From Planctomycetia bacterium (GTDB taxonomy: Bacteria; Planctomycetota; UBA8108; SXIK01), in contig SXIK01000152.1 in NCBI GenBank assembly GCA_005772855.1, forward strand, positions 1 through 43,794: a DNA stretch of 43,794 nt. Reading direction: 5' to 3'. The notes beneath the pieces were generated by a model. That model was not told the DNA's origin and searched no databases. It worked only from the letters and a program-made list of their open reading frames with translations. How positions within the stretch are numbered: the stretch's first letter is position 1; every line of letters begins with the position of its first letter. Of this stretch, positions 267-38,665 are shown piece after piece. Both the position numbers and the translations under genes were made by a program.

Positions 267-3200
267 CTACTCGAAGGTCAGCAGGAGGTCGCCGGCTTCA
301 ACCTTGCCACCTTTTTCGACGAACAGCTCCTTGATGCGGCGCGTGAGCGGCGCGGTAACGTTCACCTGCATCTTCATGGCCTCGAGGACAAGCAGCACCT
401 CGCCCTGCTCAACTGCCTGACCAGCCTTCACTCGAATCTCGGCGACCGCGCCCTGCATGGCAGCGGCAAGCTGGTGTAGATCGGCTGGATCAGCCTTCTT
501 GCGCGAGACCACCTTCTTCGTGAAATTGCGGTCCTCGATCTCCACCTCGCGGGCGACACCGTTTACCTCGAAGACCAACTTGCGAACGCCATCGGGGCCT
601 GGCAGGCCCACGCTCAGGAGGCGGAGGATGATCGTTTTTCCTTTCTCGATCTCGACCGCAATCTCTTCGCCAATCTCCATGCCGAAGAAGAAGTTCTTCG
701 TCGGGATCGACTGCACGTCGCCATGCGCCCTCTTTTCCTTGTCAAACTCGAGGAAGACCTGTGGATACATGAGGTAGGAGAGAAGCTCCCGGTGGGTGGG
801 CTCGCGCGAAATCTTGTGCGCCAACTCCCTCGCCACCTGTTCGAGCTTGATCGGCTTCTTCGCCGCGGCTTTCCCCGTCTTGCGGCCCTGGAGGACGATT
901 TCCTGCAGCTTTCTGGGAAAGCCAAAGGGCGGACGGCCAATCTTGCCCTCGAAGAAGCCAGCCACGGACTCGGGGAAGGATCTACCAGAGCCACTCTGCA
1001 GGATGGCCTCGGGGGTCAGATTGTTCGAGACCATGAAAAGGGCGAAGTCGCCGACGATCTTGGAAGACGGTGTCACCTTGACGATGTCGCCCAGGAGCAG
1101 GTTTGCCTCCGTATAGGCCCGCTTCACATCTGTCCACCGGCTCGCGAGCCCCAGCGAGGCGGCCTGCTGCTTCAAGTTCGAGTACTGTCCACCGGGCATC
1201 TCGTGCTCGTACACTTCAGCGGTTCCTGCCCGCAACTCGCTTTCAAATGGGTAGTACCACTTGCGAACCTCCTCGAAGTAGTCGGAGATCTCGTTCAGGG
1301 CCTGGATGTCAAGACCCGGATCTCGTCTCTGGCCCCCAAGCACCGCAACCATCGAGTTCAAGTTCACCTGGGAGGTGCAGCCGCTCATGGATGAGATCGC
1401 CAAGTCGAGAGCATCGACTCCAGCTTCGCAGGCCTTCAAAATTGAAGCCGCCTGGATCCCGCTCGTGTCGTGGGTGTGGAAGTGGACTGGAATGCCAATC
1501 TCGTCCTTCAGCTTCTTCACGAGGAGCTGCGTCGCATACGGTTTACATAGCCCCGCCATGTCCTTTATGCCGAGGATGTGAGCACCCCGCTTCTCGAGAT
1601 CCCTGGCGAGCTCAACGTAGTACTTCAAATTGTAGCGTTGTCGCTTTGAATCCAGGATGTCTCCCGTGTAACAAATCGCAGCCTCCGCCACCCCACCCGT
1701 GTTGCGCACGGCCTCAATCGCTGCAGTCATGCCCGGCACGTAGTTCAAGGAGTCGAAAATGCGGAAAATATCGATCCCCGTGGAGGCTGCTTCCTTCACA
1801 AACGACCGTACGACATTGGCGGGGTAGTTGGTATAGCCGACGACGTTGGCTCCACGAATGAGCATCTGGAGGAGAATGTTGGGAATCGCCTCCCTGAGGA
1901 TCGCAAGGCGCTCCCAGGGATCCTCGCGAAGAAACCGCATCGAGGTATCGAAGGTCGCCCCCCCCCAGACCTCCATGCTGAAAAGCTCCGGCAGCCGGTG
2001 CGAGTAAGCGCTTGCGACCGCGGCAAGGTCGCGTGTCCGCATACGGGTGGCGAGGAGCGATTGCTGGGCATCGCGGAAGGTGGTGTCGGTGATCAGCAGC
2101 CGCTCCTGCTTGAGCATCCACTGGATGAGGCCCGGGACCCCATGCTCCTCGAGAATCTGCTTTGTGCCTCGGGAGACAGGGTGCGATGGCACGATCGTGG
2201 GCACGACGGGGTGCACGTTCGCCGGCATCTTCAAGTTCGCGCCGATCAGTGAGTTTCCGTGCACGATGATGTCGCCCAGAATGCGTGTCAACTTCGTGGC
2301 TCGATCGCGCCGCTCAGTAAACCGAAAGATCTCCGGGTGCGAATCGATAAATCCCGTCGTGCAGAGACCGGCCTGAAAATCAGCGTGGCCGACAACATTC
2401 GCAAGGAACGGAATGTTGGTGGCGAGCCCTCGCACGCGAAATTCTGCGAGCGTGCGCAGCATTCTTCGGGCTGCTGCGGGGATCGTCTGGCCCCAGGAAG
2501 TCACCTTCACGAGGAGGGAATCATAGTACGGGGTCACGACCGCACCACTGAACGCACTTCCGGCATCAAGGCGAATGCCAAAGCCAACGGCAGAACGATA
2601 AGCCGCGATCTTCCCGTACTGCGGTGTAAAGTTCTGTGTTGGGTCCTCCGTGGTGATGCGACACTGAATGGCGCAACCGCGAATCGTGACTTTGCTCTGG
2701 TCGTCGAGGTTGAGGACGGGGTCGTCGAGGGCGTGCCCTTCGGCGATGCGTATCTGCGACTGGACGATGTCGATACCTGTCACGACTTCGGTGACGGTAT
2801 GCTCGACCTGGATTCGCGGATTCACCTCGATGAAATACGGGGCACCGCTCGAGTCGATGAGAAACTCGAAAGTGCCTGCGTTTCGGTACCCCATTCTTCT
2901 CGCAAGGGCGAGGGACATCTCGAAGAGCCGCTCGCGCAAGGAGCGGTCGAGGTTCAGGGACGGCGCGACCTCGATGACTTTCTGGTGTCGCCGCTGGATC
3001 GAGCAGTCACGCTCGAAGAGGTGAATGAGTTTGCCCTTGTGGTCGCCGAGGATCTGCACCTCGATATGGCGCGGATTCACGACCATCTTCTCGAGGAAGA
3101 CAGCAGCGTTCCCAAAGGCCTGGAGTGCCTCACGCCTGGCAAGCGGAAAGGCCACCTTGAGCTCAGCAGCCGTTTTGCAAGCGCGGATTCCGCGCCCTCC

Positions 3201-3734
3201 GCCTCCGTGCGCTGCCTTGACCATGACGGGATAGCCAAATTTCTTCGCCAGCCGGAGCGCTGCCGACAGGTCCTCCACTGGCTCCTCGGTGCCTGGAATC
3301 ACAGGGACTCCGAGCGACATGGCGAGATTGCGGGCGGTGACCTTGTCTCCGGCGAGTCGCAAGGACTCGGGGTGAGGCCCTATAAAGACAATACCCGCTG
3401 CCTCGCACGCCTCTGCGAACTCCGCACGTTCGGAAAGGAATCCGTAACCGGGATGGATGGCGTCGACACCCAGCGACTTCGCCAGCTCAACGATCTCATC
3501 CTGTGCAAGGTAGGCTGCGACGGGCCCCTTACCCTTGCCGACCTGGTAGCCTTCGTCAGCCTTGTAGCGGTGGAGCGAGAGCTTGTCCTCCTCCGAATAG
3601 ATCGCCACAGTCGAGATTCCAAGCTCACTACAGGCTCGGAAGACCCGGATCGCGATCTCGCCGCGGTTGGCAACCAGGACCTTCTTGAATGACTTGACGC
3701 TGGTGTGAGGAGGTTGGGGATGAGTCGAGGCCAT
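267..3734 (-). CDS. pyc: Pyruvate carboxylase, single-chain (biotin carboxylase + carboxyltransferase + biotinyl domain)
   Basis: A 1155-aa protein of the usual length for alpha-type pyruvate carboxylase, which makes oxaloacetate from pyruvate, bicarbonate and ATP in the cytoplasm. In order: biotin carboxylase domain (about residues 15-465) with KVLVANRGEIAIRVFRA near the start, the glycine-rich ATP loop GGGGRGIR and the EVNPRIQVEHTVTE strand; carboxyltransferase domain (about 555-830) opening with DTTFRDAQQSLLATRMRT; the conserved PYC/OADA domain; and a C-terminal biotinyl domain with AMKM, the biotinylated lysine being about K1121. All three catalytic units are intact, so this is not an acetyl-CoA or oxaloacetate decarboxylase subunit. 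The start at MASTHPQ leaves a short N-terminal extension before the domain. The kelch gene lies 114 bp upstream on the same strand and shows no functional link. Confidence 0.97.
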   Translation of the reverse strand: MASTHPQPPHTSVKSFKKVLVANRGEIAIRVFRACSELGISTVAIYSEEDKLSLHRYKADEGYQVGKGKGPVAAYLAQDEIVELAKSLGVDAIHPGYGFLSERAEFAEACEAAGIVFIGPHPESLRLAGDKVTARNLAMSLGVPVIPGTEEPVEDLSAALRLAKKFGYPVMVKAAHGGGGRGIRACKTAAELKVAFPLARREALQAFGNAAVFLEKMVVNPRHIEVQILGDHKGKLIHLFERDCSIQRRHQKVIEVAPSLNLDRSLRERLFEMSLALARRMGYRNAGTFEFLIDSSGAPYFIEVNPRIQVEHTVTEVVTGIDIVQSQIRIAEGHALDDPVLNLDDQSKVTIRGCAIQCRITTEDPTQNFTPQYGKIAAYRSAVGFGIRLDAGSAFSGAVVTPYYDSLLVKVTSWGQTIPAAARRMLRTLAEFRVRGLATNIPFLANVVGHADFQAGLCTTGFIDSHPEIFRFTERRDRATKLTRILGDIIVHGNSLIGANLKMPANVHPVVPTIVPSHPVSRGTKQILEEHGVPGLIQWMLKQERLLITDTTFRDAQQSLLATRMRTRDLAAVASAYSHRLPELFSMEVWGGATFDTSMRFLREDPWERLAILREAIPNILLQMLIRGANVVGYTNYPANVVRSFVKEAASTGIDIFRIFDSLNYVPGMTAAIEAVRNTGGVAEAAICYTGDILDSKRQRYNLKYYVELARDLEKRGAHILGIKDMAGLCKPYATQLLVKKLKDEIGIPVHFHTHDTSGIQAASILKACEAGVDALDLAISSMSGCTSQVNLNSMVAVLGGQRRDPGLDIQALNEISDYFEEVRKWYYPFESELRAGTAEVYEHEMPGGQYSNLKQQAASLGLASRWTDVKRAYTEANLLLGDIVKVTPSSKIVGDFALFMVSNNLTPEAILQSGSGRSFPESVAGFFEGKIGRPPFGFPRKLQEIVLQGRKTGKAAAKKPIKLEQVARELAHKISREPTHRELLSYLMYPQVFLEFDKEKRAHGDVQSIPTKNFFFGMEIGEEIAVEIEKGKTIILRLLSVGLPGPDGVRKLVFEVNGVAREVEIEDRNFTKKVVSRKKADPADLHQLAAAMQGAVAEIRVKAGQAVEQGEVLLVLEAMKMQVNVTAPLTRRIKELFVEKGGKVEAGDLLLTFE

Positions 3735-18032: not shown

Positions 18033-18341
18033 TGTGGGCCTTCTGAATACTGAGCAGTTCCTCGCTTTTTGGCGAAAAGTGATGCTGGAGCCTTCGTCTC
18101 GGCGGGTGATCGTTTCTACTCCTGGACATTGCAAAATCAGTCCGCCAGGGCTCGCTTGAGCCAAAAGCCATCCCTCATGGATAGTTTTCGATCGTGGATG
18201 GTCACTACAAAACTCCGCAAAGTCTTGAGACCGAAGGCCCGCGAGGATGCCCGATCGGGTGGGGTCAGTCAAGGACTAAGCTCGCCACCCCCCGTGGAGC
18301 ACTCTCTTGAATGCCTGGGCGCAAACGTGGACCATTCCTAC
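18033..18341. other. Divergent intergenic region, transporter cluster / PDK-like kinase
   Basis: About 309 bp between two divergent genes. Both flanking frames stay open through it (minus frame to 18272, plus frame to a TTG at 18069), but neither extension resembles its family, and they would overlap each other. Promoters for both directions should lie here. No clear -35/-10 boxes or operator were identified. Confidence 0.45.
18039..18044 (-). promoter_or_regulatory. Shine-Dalgarno site fixing a TTG start
   Basis: On the minus strand AGAAGG (18044-18039) is followed by CCCACA and then TTG at 18032. The site and spacing are nearly ideal, and the resulting N-terminus is a proper lipoprotein signal, so it decides the start of the TctC-TctB fusion. 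Confidence 0.7.
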
Positions 18342-19433
18342 ATGCCCGCTGTCGACAACATTCTCGAGAAAATCCATTACCTCGCCCAATTCACCCAGCG
18401 GCCAGTGTCCTTGAAGAAGTTGTTTGAGTTCGGGCTGGAACCGTCCCCGCAATCGCTCCTCATCGCCGCACAATTCCTGCATCAGGAGCTTCCGGTGCGA
18501 CTCTCTCACCGCGTTCAAGAGCTCGAGAGCCTTCCGTGTGGACTCTCGGAGATGCCCGCCGTGTGCCACGTAAAGGGAATGTATATTGACAGCGTCCGCG
18601 AGCTGATCGCGTTTCAGAGACCCGAGACACAGGAGCTCGAGCTGGCCTTCACGCAGACGCTGGATCGCATCAAGCGACGACACAAGAGCGTCGTGTCAAA
18701 CCTGGCACAGGGCATTATTGAACTCAAGGAAACCCTGGGTGCGGGTGAAGTCGATCCGCGAATTCAGGACTTCCTCGACCGGTTCTACATGTCACGAATC
18801 GGCATTCGAATGCTCATCGGACAGCACATTGCTCTCCATGCGCCCATCCGACCAGGTTATGCGGGTCTGATCTCGGAGCGGTGCGCCGTGAGTACGGTAC
18901 TCCGCCAGGCCGCTGAAAAAGCCCGAATCCTTTGCGTGTCACGCTATGGAATCGCGCCCGAAGTGGGTATTTTTGGCAATGCGGACTTGGCCTTCACTTA
19001 CATTCCGTCGCACCTTGAGCACATGCTCTTTGAGCTTCTGAAGAACTCCATGCGGGCGGTCGTCGAGTTCAGAGGATCTTCAGCCGAGAACTTGCCCATC
19101 ATCCGCGTCGTGATCGCGAAGGGCGAGGAGGACTTGACCATCAAGGTCTCCGACGAAGGTGGGGGCATTCCACGAAGCGGAATTCACCGAATCTGGACCT
19201 ATTTCTACACGACGGCGACTCCCCCACTGAGCGAGCGCAACACCACCTACTCCAGCGATTTCTCGGCGCCACTGGCGGGGCTTGGCTACGGCCTGCCCGT
19301 AAGCCGTCTCTACGCGCGTTACTTTGGCGGTGACCTTCAGGTGCTCTCGATGGAAGGATATGGCACCGACGCCTATTTGCACTTGAAGCAGCTTGCGACG
19401 GCCTCAGAAACCTTGCCTCGCAAACTGCTTTGA
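18342..19433 (+). CDS. Bacterial homologue of mitochondrial PDK/BCKDK protein kinases
   Basis: 363 aa from ATG 18342; the frame is open 91 codons further, but the family N-terminus aligns from here (IHYLAQFTQRPVSLKKLFEFG). Compared from memory with human PDKs, the regulatory helical domain (about 10-165) shows FLHQELPVRL, RIKRRHKSVVSNLAQGIIE (H114) and FLDRFYMSRIGIRMLIGQH. The GHKL ATPase domain (about 185-352) shows SHLEHMLFELLKNSMRA (H227, E231, N235), KVSDEGGGIPRSGIHR (D271), APLAGLGYGLPVSRLYARYF and LQVLSMEGYGTDA. In mitochondria these enzymes phosphorylate serines of the E1-alpha subunit of pyruvate or branched-chain 2-oxoacid dehydrogenase and so switch it off. The protein stops just after the ATPase domain: the eukaryotic tail with the Asp-Trp motif is absent. 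No dehydrogenase genes are in the window. Family membership is clear; the substrate is inference. Confidence 0.93.
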   Translation: MPAVDNILEKIHYLAQFTQRPVSLKKLFEFGLEPSPQSLLIAAQFLHQELPVRLSHRVQELESLPCGLSEMPAVCHVKGMYIDSVRELIAFQRPETQELELAFTQTLDRIKRRHKSVVSNLAQGIIELKETLGAGEVDPRIQDFLDRFYMSRIGIRMLIGQHIALHAPIRPGYAGLISERCAVSTVLRQAAEKARILCVSRYGIAPEVGIFGNADLAFTYIPSHLEHMLFELLKNSMRAVVEFRGSSAENLPIIRVVIAKGEEDLTIKVSDEGGGIPRSGIHRIWTYFYTTATPPLSERNTTYSSDFSAPLAGLGYGLPVSRLYARYFGGDLQVLSMEGYGTDAYLHLKQLATASETLPRKLL

Positions 19434-35911: not shown

Positions 35912-38665
35912 ATGCAGGAGCCGGAGGAGATCGTTGTATTCTCACTGGGCCTAACCCCGACCGGCCACGTCGCGGTGGTCCTCGACGATGCGCCGTCGGC
36001 CGATCTTCCACCACGCGCCGCTTCCCGCATCCGAGCCGCCTTCGAGCGCGGACGCGGCCACGGCCTCTTCCACCTCGGAGCCGTCGAGACGCAGGGTGAG
36101 CTCGGGCCAGCAATTTCCTTCTGGCGCGACCTCGCAAAGCTCTACCTGACCAAGCTGTGTGCTCACGTCGACATCGATCAGGCCGTCAAGGAAGGTCTCC
36201 CTGTGAACTTCCCCGATGACGAAGCCTCCGCGATGCTCGCCTCCGCGCCGCCCTTCCGGGGCGCAGAATATCTCTCCCGCGAGGCGCTCGACGGGGCCTG
36301 GAGGGAGATCGGGCAGGCGTTTCTCGACGAGGTGAAGGCCTCCGGCCTCGGCGCGCAGGAGATGCTCAAGCAGAGGAACGAGCTCTGGAACATGGTGGGG
36401 CGCGTTTTCTTCCATCTCGCCGAAAACAAGGCGCGCCCCGATGTGCCCTTTGCGTTTCTCGCGACGTACACGACTCGAATTTCGAGCCAGGGCAAGCTCC
36501 AGCACGTGCCTCTGGGTCGGGCGGTGCAGGAGCAGGCGATCGGGGGAGACAGGAAGCTCCTTCTCTCTCTCCTCCTCCCCGTGCAGAGGGCAGCTTCGCA
36601 GAGCACGTTGCTTCGGGAGCTCGTCGACTCCGGAAAGATTTTTCAGACCCAGGCGTGGAAGCCTTCGGAGGCGTACCGGTTTCTCAAGGAGGTTCCGCTT
36701 CTCGAAGACAAGGGGGTGCACGTGCGGCTGCCGGACTGGTGGAAGCGCGGGCAGCCACCTCGTCTGCAGGTGAGTGTGACGATGGGGAGCGAAAGTGCCG
36801 TGGGGGTCGGCGTGGAGGCCATGCTCGACTTCTCCGTCGGCCTCGCCATGGACGGCGAGCCGGTCTCGAAAGCTGAATGGAAGGAGATCCTGGCCCAGAA
36901 CGACGGGCTTGCGCTCGTCAAGGGGCGCTGGGTCGAGGTCGACCGCAAGAAACTCGAGGGGCTCCTCGAGCACTGGAAGCAGGTCGAGCAGGCGGCGCGC
37001 GAGGACGGCGTGACCTTCTTGAAGGCCGTGCGGCTCCTTGCGGGGGCACCCGGCTCGAGTTCGACCTTCGACCCAACCGGTGCCGAGCCCGCGTCCCGGG
37101 ACGAGTGGCTCTCCGTGAACGCAGGGCCCTGGCTGCGGGAGGCGCTCGAAAGCCTCCGCAAGCCCGAGGCAGCGCTCGAGCTTGCCCCGGGGGCTGAGCT
37201 CACCGCCGACCTACGCCCGTATCAGCGCGACGGCGTCAAGTGGCTCTGGCTGCTCCGAAAGCTGGGGCTCGGCGGCTGTCTCGCCGATGACATGGGCCTC
37301 GGGAAGACGGTGCAGGTCATCGCGATTCTTGTTCTCTTGCGGCGCGAGCGCGCAAGAGCGAGCGCTTCGCGGCCTAGCATCCTCGTCCTGCCGGCTTCAC
37401 TCATCGGAAACTGGAAGAGCGAGCTCGAAAAGTTTGCGCCGGCCGTCAAGTTCTTCGTCGCTCATCCTTCAGAGGTACCGACAGGGGAGATCCCTACGGC
37501 GATCGAGGAGCGATTTCATGACTTCGACGTCGTCCTGACCACCTATGGATTCATCCATCGCCAGGCGTGGGCTCGAGAGAAACAGTGGGACCTCGTCGTC
37601 CTCGATGAAGCGCAGGCGATCAAAAACCCAGGCACCAACCAGGCAAAGGCTGTCAAGGAACTCCGCTGCCGACAGCGCGTCGTGCTCACGGGAACTCCGA
37701 TCGAGAACCGTGTCGGCGACCTCTGGTCCCTCTTCGACTTCTTGAACCCGGGCCTCCTCGGGAGCGCGAAGGAGTTTTCGCGATTCGCGGGTACGGCGGG
37801 AAAGGGCGGCCGCGACGTCTTCGGGACGATCCGAAGCCTTGTGCGGCCCTACATCCTGCGTCGCTTGAAGACGGACAGGCGGATCATTCGTGACTTGCCC
37901 GACAAGACCGAAGTGAAGGTTCACTGCGGTCTCGAGAAGACGCAGGCGGTGCTCTATCAGAAGACCGTGGACGATCTCGCGAAATCGCTCGGGGGGCTCG
38001 ATCGGAAGGACGGGATCCGCCGGCGCGGCATCGTGCTCTCGTTCCTTCTTCGTCTGAAGCAGATCTGCAACCACCCTTCGCAGTGGACGGGCGACGGCGT
38101 CTATGCGCCCGAGCACAGCGGGAAAATGCTCCGGTTGCGCGAGATTTCGGACGAGATCTCCTCTCGGCAGGAGAAAGTCCTCGTCTTCACGCAGTTCCAG
38201 GAGATCACACGCCCGCTCGAGGAGTTTCTGAGAGGTGTTTTCCGCCGGAGCGGGCTTGTCCTTGACGGCACGACTCCCGTCAAGGCGCGCAAGGGGCTCG
38301 TGGACGACTTCCAGGCCGAGCAGGGGCCACCGTTTTTCGTCCTCTCGGTCAAGGCTGGCGGGACCGGGCTCAACTTGACGGCGGCGTCGCACGTCGTTCA
38401 CTTCGACCGCTGGTGGAATCCCGCCGTCGAGAACCAGGCGACGGATCGGGCTTTTCGCATTGGGCAAAAGCGAAACGTGCTCGTGCACAAATTCGTCTGC
38501 CGGGGCACCGTGGAGGAAAAAATCGATGAGATGCTCACGGCCAAACAAGGATTGTCGGATGAGATCCTGAAGGGGGGAGCCGAATCGTCGCTAACAGAAA
38601 TGGGCGATGAGGAGTTGATTCAATTCGTATCGCTCGATTTCAATAGAGCGACGGTGGAGAGTTGA
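35912..38665 (+). CDS. SNF2-family helicase-like ATPase
   Basis: A 917-aa protein. Residues 1-410 form the N-terminal region found in bacterial SNF2 proteins (SNF2_assoc type, e.g. GVHVRLPDWWKRGQPPRLQV; EVDRKKLEGLLEHW). The ATPase core starts with LRPYQRDGVKWLWLLRKLG and has motif I DDMGLGKT (from residue 459), Ia ILVLPASLIGNWKSE, II DEAQ (565-568), III LTGTPIENRVGDLWSLFDFL, and the C-terminal lobe VLVFTQFQEI, VKAGGTGLNLTAASHVVHFDRWWNPAVENQATDRAFRIGQ split over motifs V and VI. These are double-stranded-DNA translocases that remodel nucleoprotein complexes, as RapA does with RNA polymerase. The SWIM gene starts 26 bp after its stop. Confidence 0.95.
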   Translation: MQEPEEIVVFSLGLTPTGHVAVVLDDAPSADLPPRAASRIRAAFERGRGHGLFHLGAVETQGELGPAISFWRDLAKLYLTKLCAHVDIDQAVKEGLPVNFPDDEASAMLASAPPFRGAEYLSREALDGAWREIGQAFLDEVKASGLGAQEMLKQRNELWNMVGRVFFHLAENKARPDVPFAFLATYTTRISSQGKLQHVPLGRAVQEQAIGGDRKLLLSLLLPVQRAASQSTLLRELVDSGKIFQTQAWKPSEAYRFLKEVPLLEDKGVHVRLPDWWKRGQPPRLQVSVTMGSESAVGVGVEAMLDFSVGLAMDGEPVSKAEWKEILAQNDGLALVKGRWVEVDRKKLEGLLEHWKQVEQAAREDGVTFLKAVRLLAGAPGSSSTFDPTGAEPASRDEWLSVNAGPWLREALESLRKPEAALELAPGAELTADLRPYQRDGVKWLWLLRKLGLGGCLADDMGLGKTVQVIAILVLLRRERARASASRPSILVLPASLIGNWKSELEKFAPAVKFFVAHPSEVPTGEIPTAIEERFHDFDVVLTTYGFIHRQAWAREKQWDLVVLDEAQAIKNPGTNQAKAVKELRCRQRVVLTGTPIENRVGDLWSLFDFLNPGLLGSAKEFSRFAGTAGKGGRDVFGTIRSLVRPYILRRLKTDRRIIRDLPDKTEVKVHCGLEKTQAVLYQKTVDDLAKSLGGLDRKDGIRRRGIVLSFLLRLKQICNHPSQWTGDGVYAPEHSGKMLRLREISDEISSRQEKVLVFTQFQEITRPLEEFLRGVFRRSGLVLDGTTPVKARKGLVDDFQAEQGPPFFVLSVKAGGTGLNLTAASHVVHFDRWWNPAVENQATDRAFRIGQKRNVLVHKFVCRGTVEEKIDEMLTAKQGLSDEILKGGAESSLTEMGDEELIQFVSLDFNRATVES

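Follow-up and report, generated by a model that had tools for sequence, protein, structure and literature searches.

A bacterial branch of the pyruvate dehydrogenase kinase family associated with a mitochondrial-type pyruvate dehydrogenase

The window analyzed here, by which we mean the whole 43.8-kb contig C132 of a 5.0-Mb planctomycete metagenome-assembled genome (96% complete), encodes a member of a known kinase family in an unexpected domain of life. Judged by its sequence, the protein is as good as certain to belong to the pyruvate dehydrogenase kinase/branched-chain 2-oxoacid dehydrogenase kinase (PDK/BCKDK) family, and it is no single oddity: the kinase occurs in at least 16 genomes from three phyla, Planctomycetota, Acidobacteriota, and Sumerlaeota. 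To our knowledge, the reversible phosphorylation of pyruvate dehydrogenase (PDH) on serine by GHKL-type kinases is regarded as peculiar to mitochondria. The literature that we searched held no description of bacterial PDKs; most subscription journals lay outside its scope, and automatic database annotation may exist. We consider it likely that the protein is a genuine bacterial pyruvate dehydrogenase kinase, which would phosphorylate E1-alpha at the serine of its GHSMSDP loop, shut off the complex, and be inhibited by pyruvate. This reading builds on the observed family membership, on the conserved residues, on the finding of the candidate target enzyme, with its loop, in the same genome, and on co-occurrence in other phyla. 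A bacterial branch linked by co-occurrence and gene neighborhood to the mitochondrial-type complex would open this form of control to study in bacteria.

The window protein belongs to the PDK/BCKDK family

The gene runs on the forward strand from an ATG at position 18342 to a TGA ending at 19433 and encodes 363 amino acids. Its frame is open further upstream to an in-frame TTG at 18069, which would give a protein of 454 amino acids; we prefer the ATG because homologues begin near it. The N-terminal helical domain BCDHK_Adom3 (PF10436), the seat of the lipoyl-binding and pyruvate/dichloroacetate sites in PDKs, occupies 18402 to 18872 (+; 172 bits in the genome search), and the C-terminal GHKL ATPase domain (HATPase_c, PF02518) occupies 19005 to 19388 (+; residues 313 to 440 of the 454-amino-acid frame). 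The original prediction had assigned the protein to the PDK/BCKDK family from seven signature strings, all of which are found in the translation of 18342 to 19433, and both profiles that it expected to match do so: PF10436 with 169 bits (cut-off, 24; E = 9e-50) over profile positions 1 to 159 of 160, and HATPase_c with 49.5 bits in the Pfam scan. This is the single PF10436 match of the window genome, and the same search in 14 control genomes gave none.

Among solved structures, the closest relative by phmmer is rat PDK2 (1jm6), matched over nearly the full length with 279 bits (E = 4e-82; 46% identity). Mammalian PDK2, PDK3, PDK4, and PDK1 rank at 265 to 279 bits, BCKDK follows at 212 to 214 bits (E = 2e-62; 37% identity), and a lone histidine kinase comes last with 22 bits. 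Against NCBIfam, the protein gave weak matches only, all confined to the ATPase domain. This pattern of Pfam, PDB-chain, and NCBIfam matches confirms the assignment. An AlphaFold model built with 14 sequences was weak (mean pLDDT, 62; pTM, 0.44), and its top 50 structure matches, although all PDK or BCKDK, reached a global TM of only about 0.41, so that the model hardly strengthens the case made by sequence.

The ATPase domain is also where a different identity could be sought, namely a two-component regulatory histidine kinase that merely resembles PDKs. GHKL sensor histidine kinases share the ATP-binding N, G1, and G2 boxes with the window kinase, and the NCBIfam matches fall in just this common domain. 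However, the Pfam scan reported PF10436 and PF02518 alone, without a HisKA phospho-acceptor domain, and the N-terminal half is taken up by PF10436; neither a sensor domain nor a paired response regulator was found beside it, and sequence distances place the protein within the PDK/BCKDK family. With PF10436 in place of HisKA, we rejected the histidine-kinase reading as highly improbable.

The active site and the pyruvate pocket are of the PDK type

To examine individual residues, we aligned the window kinase with 13 other bacterial proteins that are 43 to 63% identical to it and compared them with PDK2 and BCKDK. Solved structures of the family include PDK2 (1jm6 and 2btz), PDK3 (1y8n), PDK4 (2e0a), and BCKDK (1gjv and 8f5f). 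Ten PDK2 positions—H115, E243, K246, N247, D282, G284, G286, G317, G319, and G321—are kept in all 14 bacterial proteins. They include the catalytic His/Glu pair and the ATP-site asparagine, aspartate, and glycines that the original prediction had pointed out. In the window kinase, these correspond among others to His114 (PDK2 His115; 18681 to 18683, +), to the N-box general-base glutamate Glu231 (PDK2 Glu243; 19032 to 19034, +), to the Mg-ATP ligand Asn235 (PDK2 Asn247; 19044 to 19046, +), and to Asp271 (PDK2 Asp282; 19152 to 19154, +), the adenine-binding aspartate of the DxGGG box, each invariant in the 14 homologues.

The dichloroacetate pocket of PDK2 is formed by Leu53, Tyr80, Ser83, Ile111, Arg112, His115, Ser153, Arg154, Ile157, Arg158, and Ile161 (PMC4914936). 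At the 10 of these 11 positions that were checked (all except Ser153), the window kinase equals PDK2 in nine, the exception being Arg112, which is replaced by lysine here and in all 14 bacterial sequences. BCKDK, by comparison, differs from PDK2 at 5 of the 10. The predicted pyruvate/dichloroacetate pocket of the window kinase is thus of the PDK type and not of the BCKDK type. At the four hydrophobic positions of the PDK2 lipoamide pocket, the window kinase is hydrophobic throughout, with V/L/F/F in place of L/F/F/F.

Overall, the window kinase has the two-domain build of PDK1 to PDK4, every catalytic residue that was checked, and a nearly identical pyruvate/dichloroacetate pocket, but it resides in a bacterial host and lacks their N-terminal extension. 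Moreover, the bacterial kinases end shortly after the GTDA strand, and because the C-terminal tail of animal PDKs is missing, so is the DW motif. The tail is likewise absent from BCKDK, which has the same family and domain order as the window kinase but lower identity to it than PDK2. For structural studies and work on inhibitors, the bacterial proteins might serve as compact natural PDKs that lack the DW tail.

The gene is bacterial and sparsely distributed

Eukaryotic contamination might be suspected, given that the family is familiar from mitochondria and that every genome considered here was assembled from metagenomes. The surroundings of the gene say otherwise: on the 43.8-kb contig it is flanked by bacterial genes for an HpcH/HpaI aldolase, the tripartite tricarboxylate transporter components TctA and TctC/TctB, an FHA-GAF protein, and an FAA hydrolase; it stands alone, divergent from the transporter, its base composition equals that of its neighbors, and the contig is uninterrupted at this point. 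The homologues, too, are surrounded by bacterial genes in three phyla, one of them (in G415) on a contig of 1.26 Mb. Given these flanks, the even base composition, and the 16 or more genomes that carry the kinase, we rejected contamination, whose probability we regard as negligible; the bacterial location on which the original prediction depended is borne out.

Within the phyla concerned, the kinase is patchy. PF10436 exceeds the cut-off in only 2 of about 392 sampled Planctomycetota genomes, in 10 of 40 Sumerlaeota, and, for the phylum of the acidobacterium G392, in about 1 to 2 of 347 and 1 of 247 genomes in two spread samples. The acidobacterial order concerned holds it in 4 of 12 genomes, one copy being cut by a contig end. 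Systematic sampling covered Planctomycetota, Acidobacteriota, and Sumerlaeota, which makes three phyla a lower bound. The nearest genome with the same kinase gene, G001, belongs to the same family as the window genome and carries it on a contig of 6,895 bases. Searches of plasmids and of viral contigs returned no relatives of the kinase, and hence we found no mobile-element carrier.

Two further observations arose from this survey. The locus L003 (VFZK01000042.1) is titled Acidimicrobiia; its genome, G393, has a PDK and an E1-alpha close to those of G392 and falls in the same phylum sample and order, for which reasons the title looks mislabelled and G393 was counted within the acidobacterial order. 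In another planctomycete, G230, a PF10436 match of 20 bits (G230:C143:4144-4719, L010), below the cut-off, lies inside a 967-amino-acid open frame, which is possibly a histidine kinase sharing part of the fold.

A mitochondrial-type pyruvate dehydrogenase is the candidate substrate

The original prediction suggested that a 2-oxoacid dehydrogenase may be controlled by serine phosphorylation and proposed looking in the same genome for an E1-alpha with serines in the phosphorylation loop. Such a protein exists. Among seven E1_dh (PF00676) matches in the window genome, the one at G000:C239:45876-46919 heads an E1-alpha–E1-beta–E2–E3 operon (L041), which lies on a different contig from the kinase. 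This E1-alpha matches the NCBIfam equivalog PDH_E1_alph_y (TIGR03182) and the operon's E2 matches PDHac_trf_mito (TIGR01349), both above the curated cut-offs, and the closest solved relative of the E1-alpha is human PDHA1 (280 bits versus 160 for the Thermus enzyme). Its phosphorylation loop reads FRGHSMSDPVHSHYR, compared with YHGHSMSDPGVSYR in human PDHA1. Phosphorylation of Ser264 and Ser271 (mature numbering) of human E1-alpha is the known route of inactivation (PMC6168537), and both serines fall in the compared loop. By itself the loop serine proves nothing, since GHSMSDP also occurs in E1-alphas of the kinase-less genomes G416, G408, and G030. Among planctomycete relatives, this E1-alpha type is found in the window genome, the next being that of G030 (46% identity, no kinase); in the kinase-bearing G001, which is 80% complete, a mitochondrial-type E1-alpha was looked for and none was found.

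The main finding is the co-occurrence of the two proteins in other phyla. In Sumerlaeota, a mitochondrial-type E1-alpha with the GHSMSDP loop, at 61 to 100% identity to the query, is present in 11 of 40 genomes: all 10 with the kinase and 1 of the 30 others, G416 (Fisher test, 1.3e-8, a value that ignores shared ancestry within the phylum). The kinase-less sumerlaeote G408 has an E1-alpha with the same loop at only 49% identity. Likewise, the acidobacterial order shows the same E1-alpha type in 4/4 kinase genomes (G392, G782, G783, and G393) versus 0/8 others, where the best match reaches 39% (Fisher test, 0.002, again ignoring shared ancestry). The exception G416 (L080, G416:C47:189930-190949) yielded no PDK even in a looser search; because its E1-alpha nests among those of kinase-bearing relatives, this looks like secondary loss or an assembly gap. 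Within Sumerlaeota, the kinase tree and the E1-alpha tree agree on two main groups, which joint inheritance of the pair in that phylum would lead one to expect. This agreement does not extend across phyla, since the E1-alpha of the window genome groups with that of G408. Since the kinase was found only together with the mitochondrial-type PDH in two other phyla, the eukaryotic manner of PDH control probably works in bacteria too, and regulation of this complex by the kinase appears well supported by genomic association. The control of a 2-oxoacid dehydrogenase that had been proposed thus gains support both from the operon with its site-1 serine loop and from this co-occurrence.

Gene neighborhoods bear on the choice of target as well. 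In G396 (L006), genes for E1-alpha, E1-beta, and E2 (pdhA-pdhB-E2) are followed on the same strand, after a gap of about 900 bases, by the kinase. In two Sumerlaeota, the kinase is separated by about 24 bases from a following L-serine ammonia-lyase gene (sda_mono; L155:2155-4632 in G421 and L156:6180-8692 in G420), in what is apparently an operon; L-serine ammonia-lyase makes pyruvate. In two Acidobacteriota, the alpha and beta subunits of a 2-oxoacid:ferredoxin oxidoreductase are encoded directly upstream of the PDK (L152:2015-6412 in G783 and L153:2570-5874 in G782), an arrangement that may reflect alternation of the ferredoxin enzyme with the PDH complex. At L002, the frame upstream of the kinase shares its C-terminal end with the oxidoreductase beta subunit of other acidobacteria, and an alanine-dehydrogenase/transhydrogenase-type gene lies downstream. 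In G396, Acidobacteriota, and Sumerlaeota alike, the neighbors of the kinase have to do with the pyruvate or 2-oxoacid node.

These neighborhoods could also be read as signs of another target, with the kinase acting on a branched-chain E1 or on the 2-oxoacid:ferredoxin oxidoreductase instead of PDH. Besides the position of the acidobacterial kinase behind that oxidoreductase, the seven PF00676 matches of the window genome leave several further E1-type enzymes to choose from, and the kinase of G393 has genes resembling enoyl-CoA hydratase and acyl-CoA carboxylase in its vicinity (named by eye). Against this, the pyruvate pocket is of the PDK and not the BCKDK type, the kinase co-occurs with the E1-alpha of PDH type, other E1 types being common where it is absent, and a ferredoxin oxidoreductase offers neither an E2 nor a lipoyl domain for docking. 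We therefore judge another target to be rather improbable and favor the PDH complex.

For the PDH complex, what the kinase does, which serine it modifies, and in which direction it regulates are predicted by analogy with mitochondrial PDKs. The N-terminal helical domain would dock on the E2 lipoyl domain and the GHKL domain would bind Mg-ATP; Glu231, together with His114, would activate the serine in the GHSMSDP loop of E1-alpha, whose phosphorylation would turn the complex off. By binding in the conserved pocket of the N-terminal domain, pyruvate would inhibit the kinase and so keep the complex on while pyruvate is plentiful.

Origin of the bacterial kinases

In the maximum-likelihood kinase tree, Planctomycetota and Acidobacteriota form a group (support, 93), with PDK2 and BCKDK on long, weakly supported branches. 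An AU test rejected neither of two topologies, one joining the eukaryotic pair (0.71) and one placing PDK2 beside the planctomycete-acidobacterial group (0.29); eukaryotic sampling consisted of PDK2 and BCKDK and, in one tree, a provisional plant sequence. PDHK and BCKDK are counted among the ancient eukaryotic kinases (PMC3218828), and the bacterial branch is therefore either old or derived from a non-animal eukaryote; a recent animal source is unlikely.

We see about an even chance that the bacterial genes descend from an ancient transfer out of a eukaryote, a protist or an alga, followed by spread between phyla. The distribution would fit, being wide in eukaryotes and patchy in bacteria (2 of about 392 Planctomycetota, 2 of 347 in the spread sample of Acidobacteriota, and 10 of 40 Sumerlaeota), as would the ancient standing of both kinases among eukaryotes (PMC3218828). 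However, the bacterial proteins do not fall inside the animal PDKs, the window kinase is closer to PDK2 (46%) and to BCKDK (37%) than these are to each other (34%), the bacterial set is itself deep, with its most distant members sharing 43% identity with the window kinase, and no tested topology was rejected. A provisional plant PDK sequence, which shares about 50% identity with the bacterial proteins, speaks for such a transfer as a lead only. Less probably, PDKs are bacterial in origin: serine control of PDH would then have arisen in bacteria with a mitochondrial-type complex, persisted in scattered lineages, and been passed from a bacterium to eukaryotes. The bacterial sequences provide material that is needed for asking where eukaryotic PDKs came from.

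Other genes of the window

Elsewhere in the window, an SNF2-family helicase of 917 amino acids (35912 to 38665, +) scores below the NCBIfam cut-offs for the SCO1167-type and Zorya ZorD models. A full-length pyruvate carboxylase of 1,155 amino acids (267 to 3734, −), matching TIGR01235 and NF009554 far above cut-off, is encoded about 14.6 kb away from the kinase gene and represents another enzyme of the pyruvate node.
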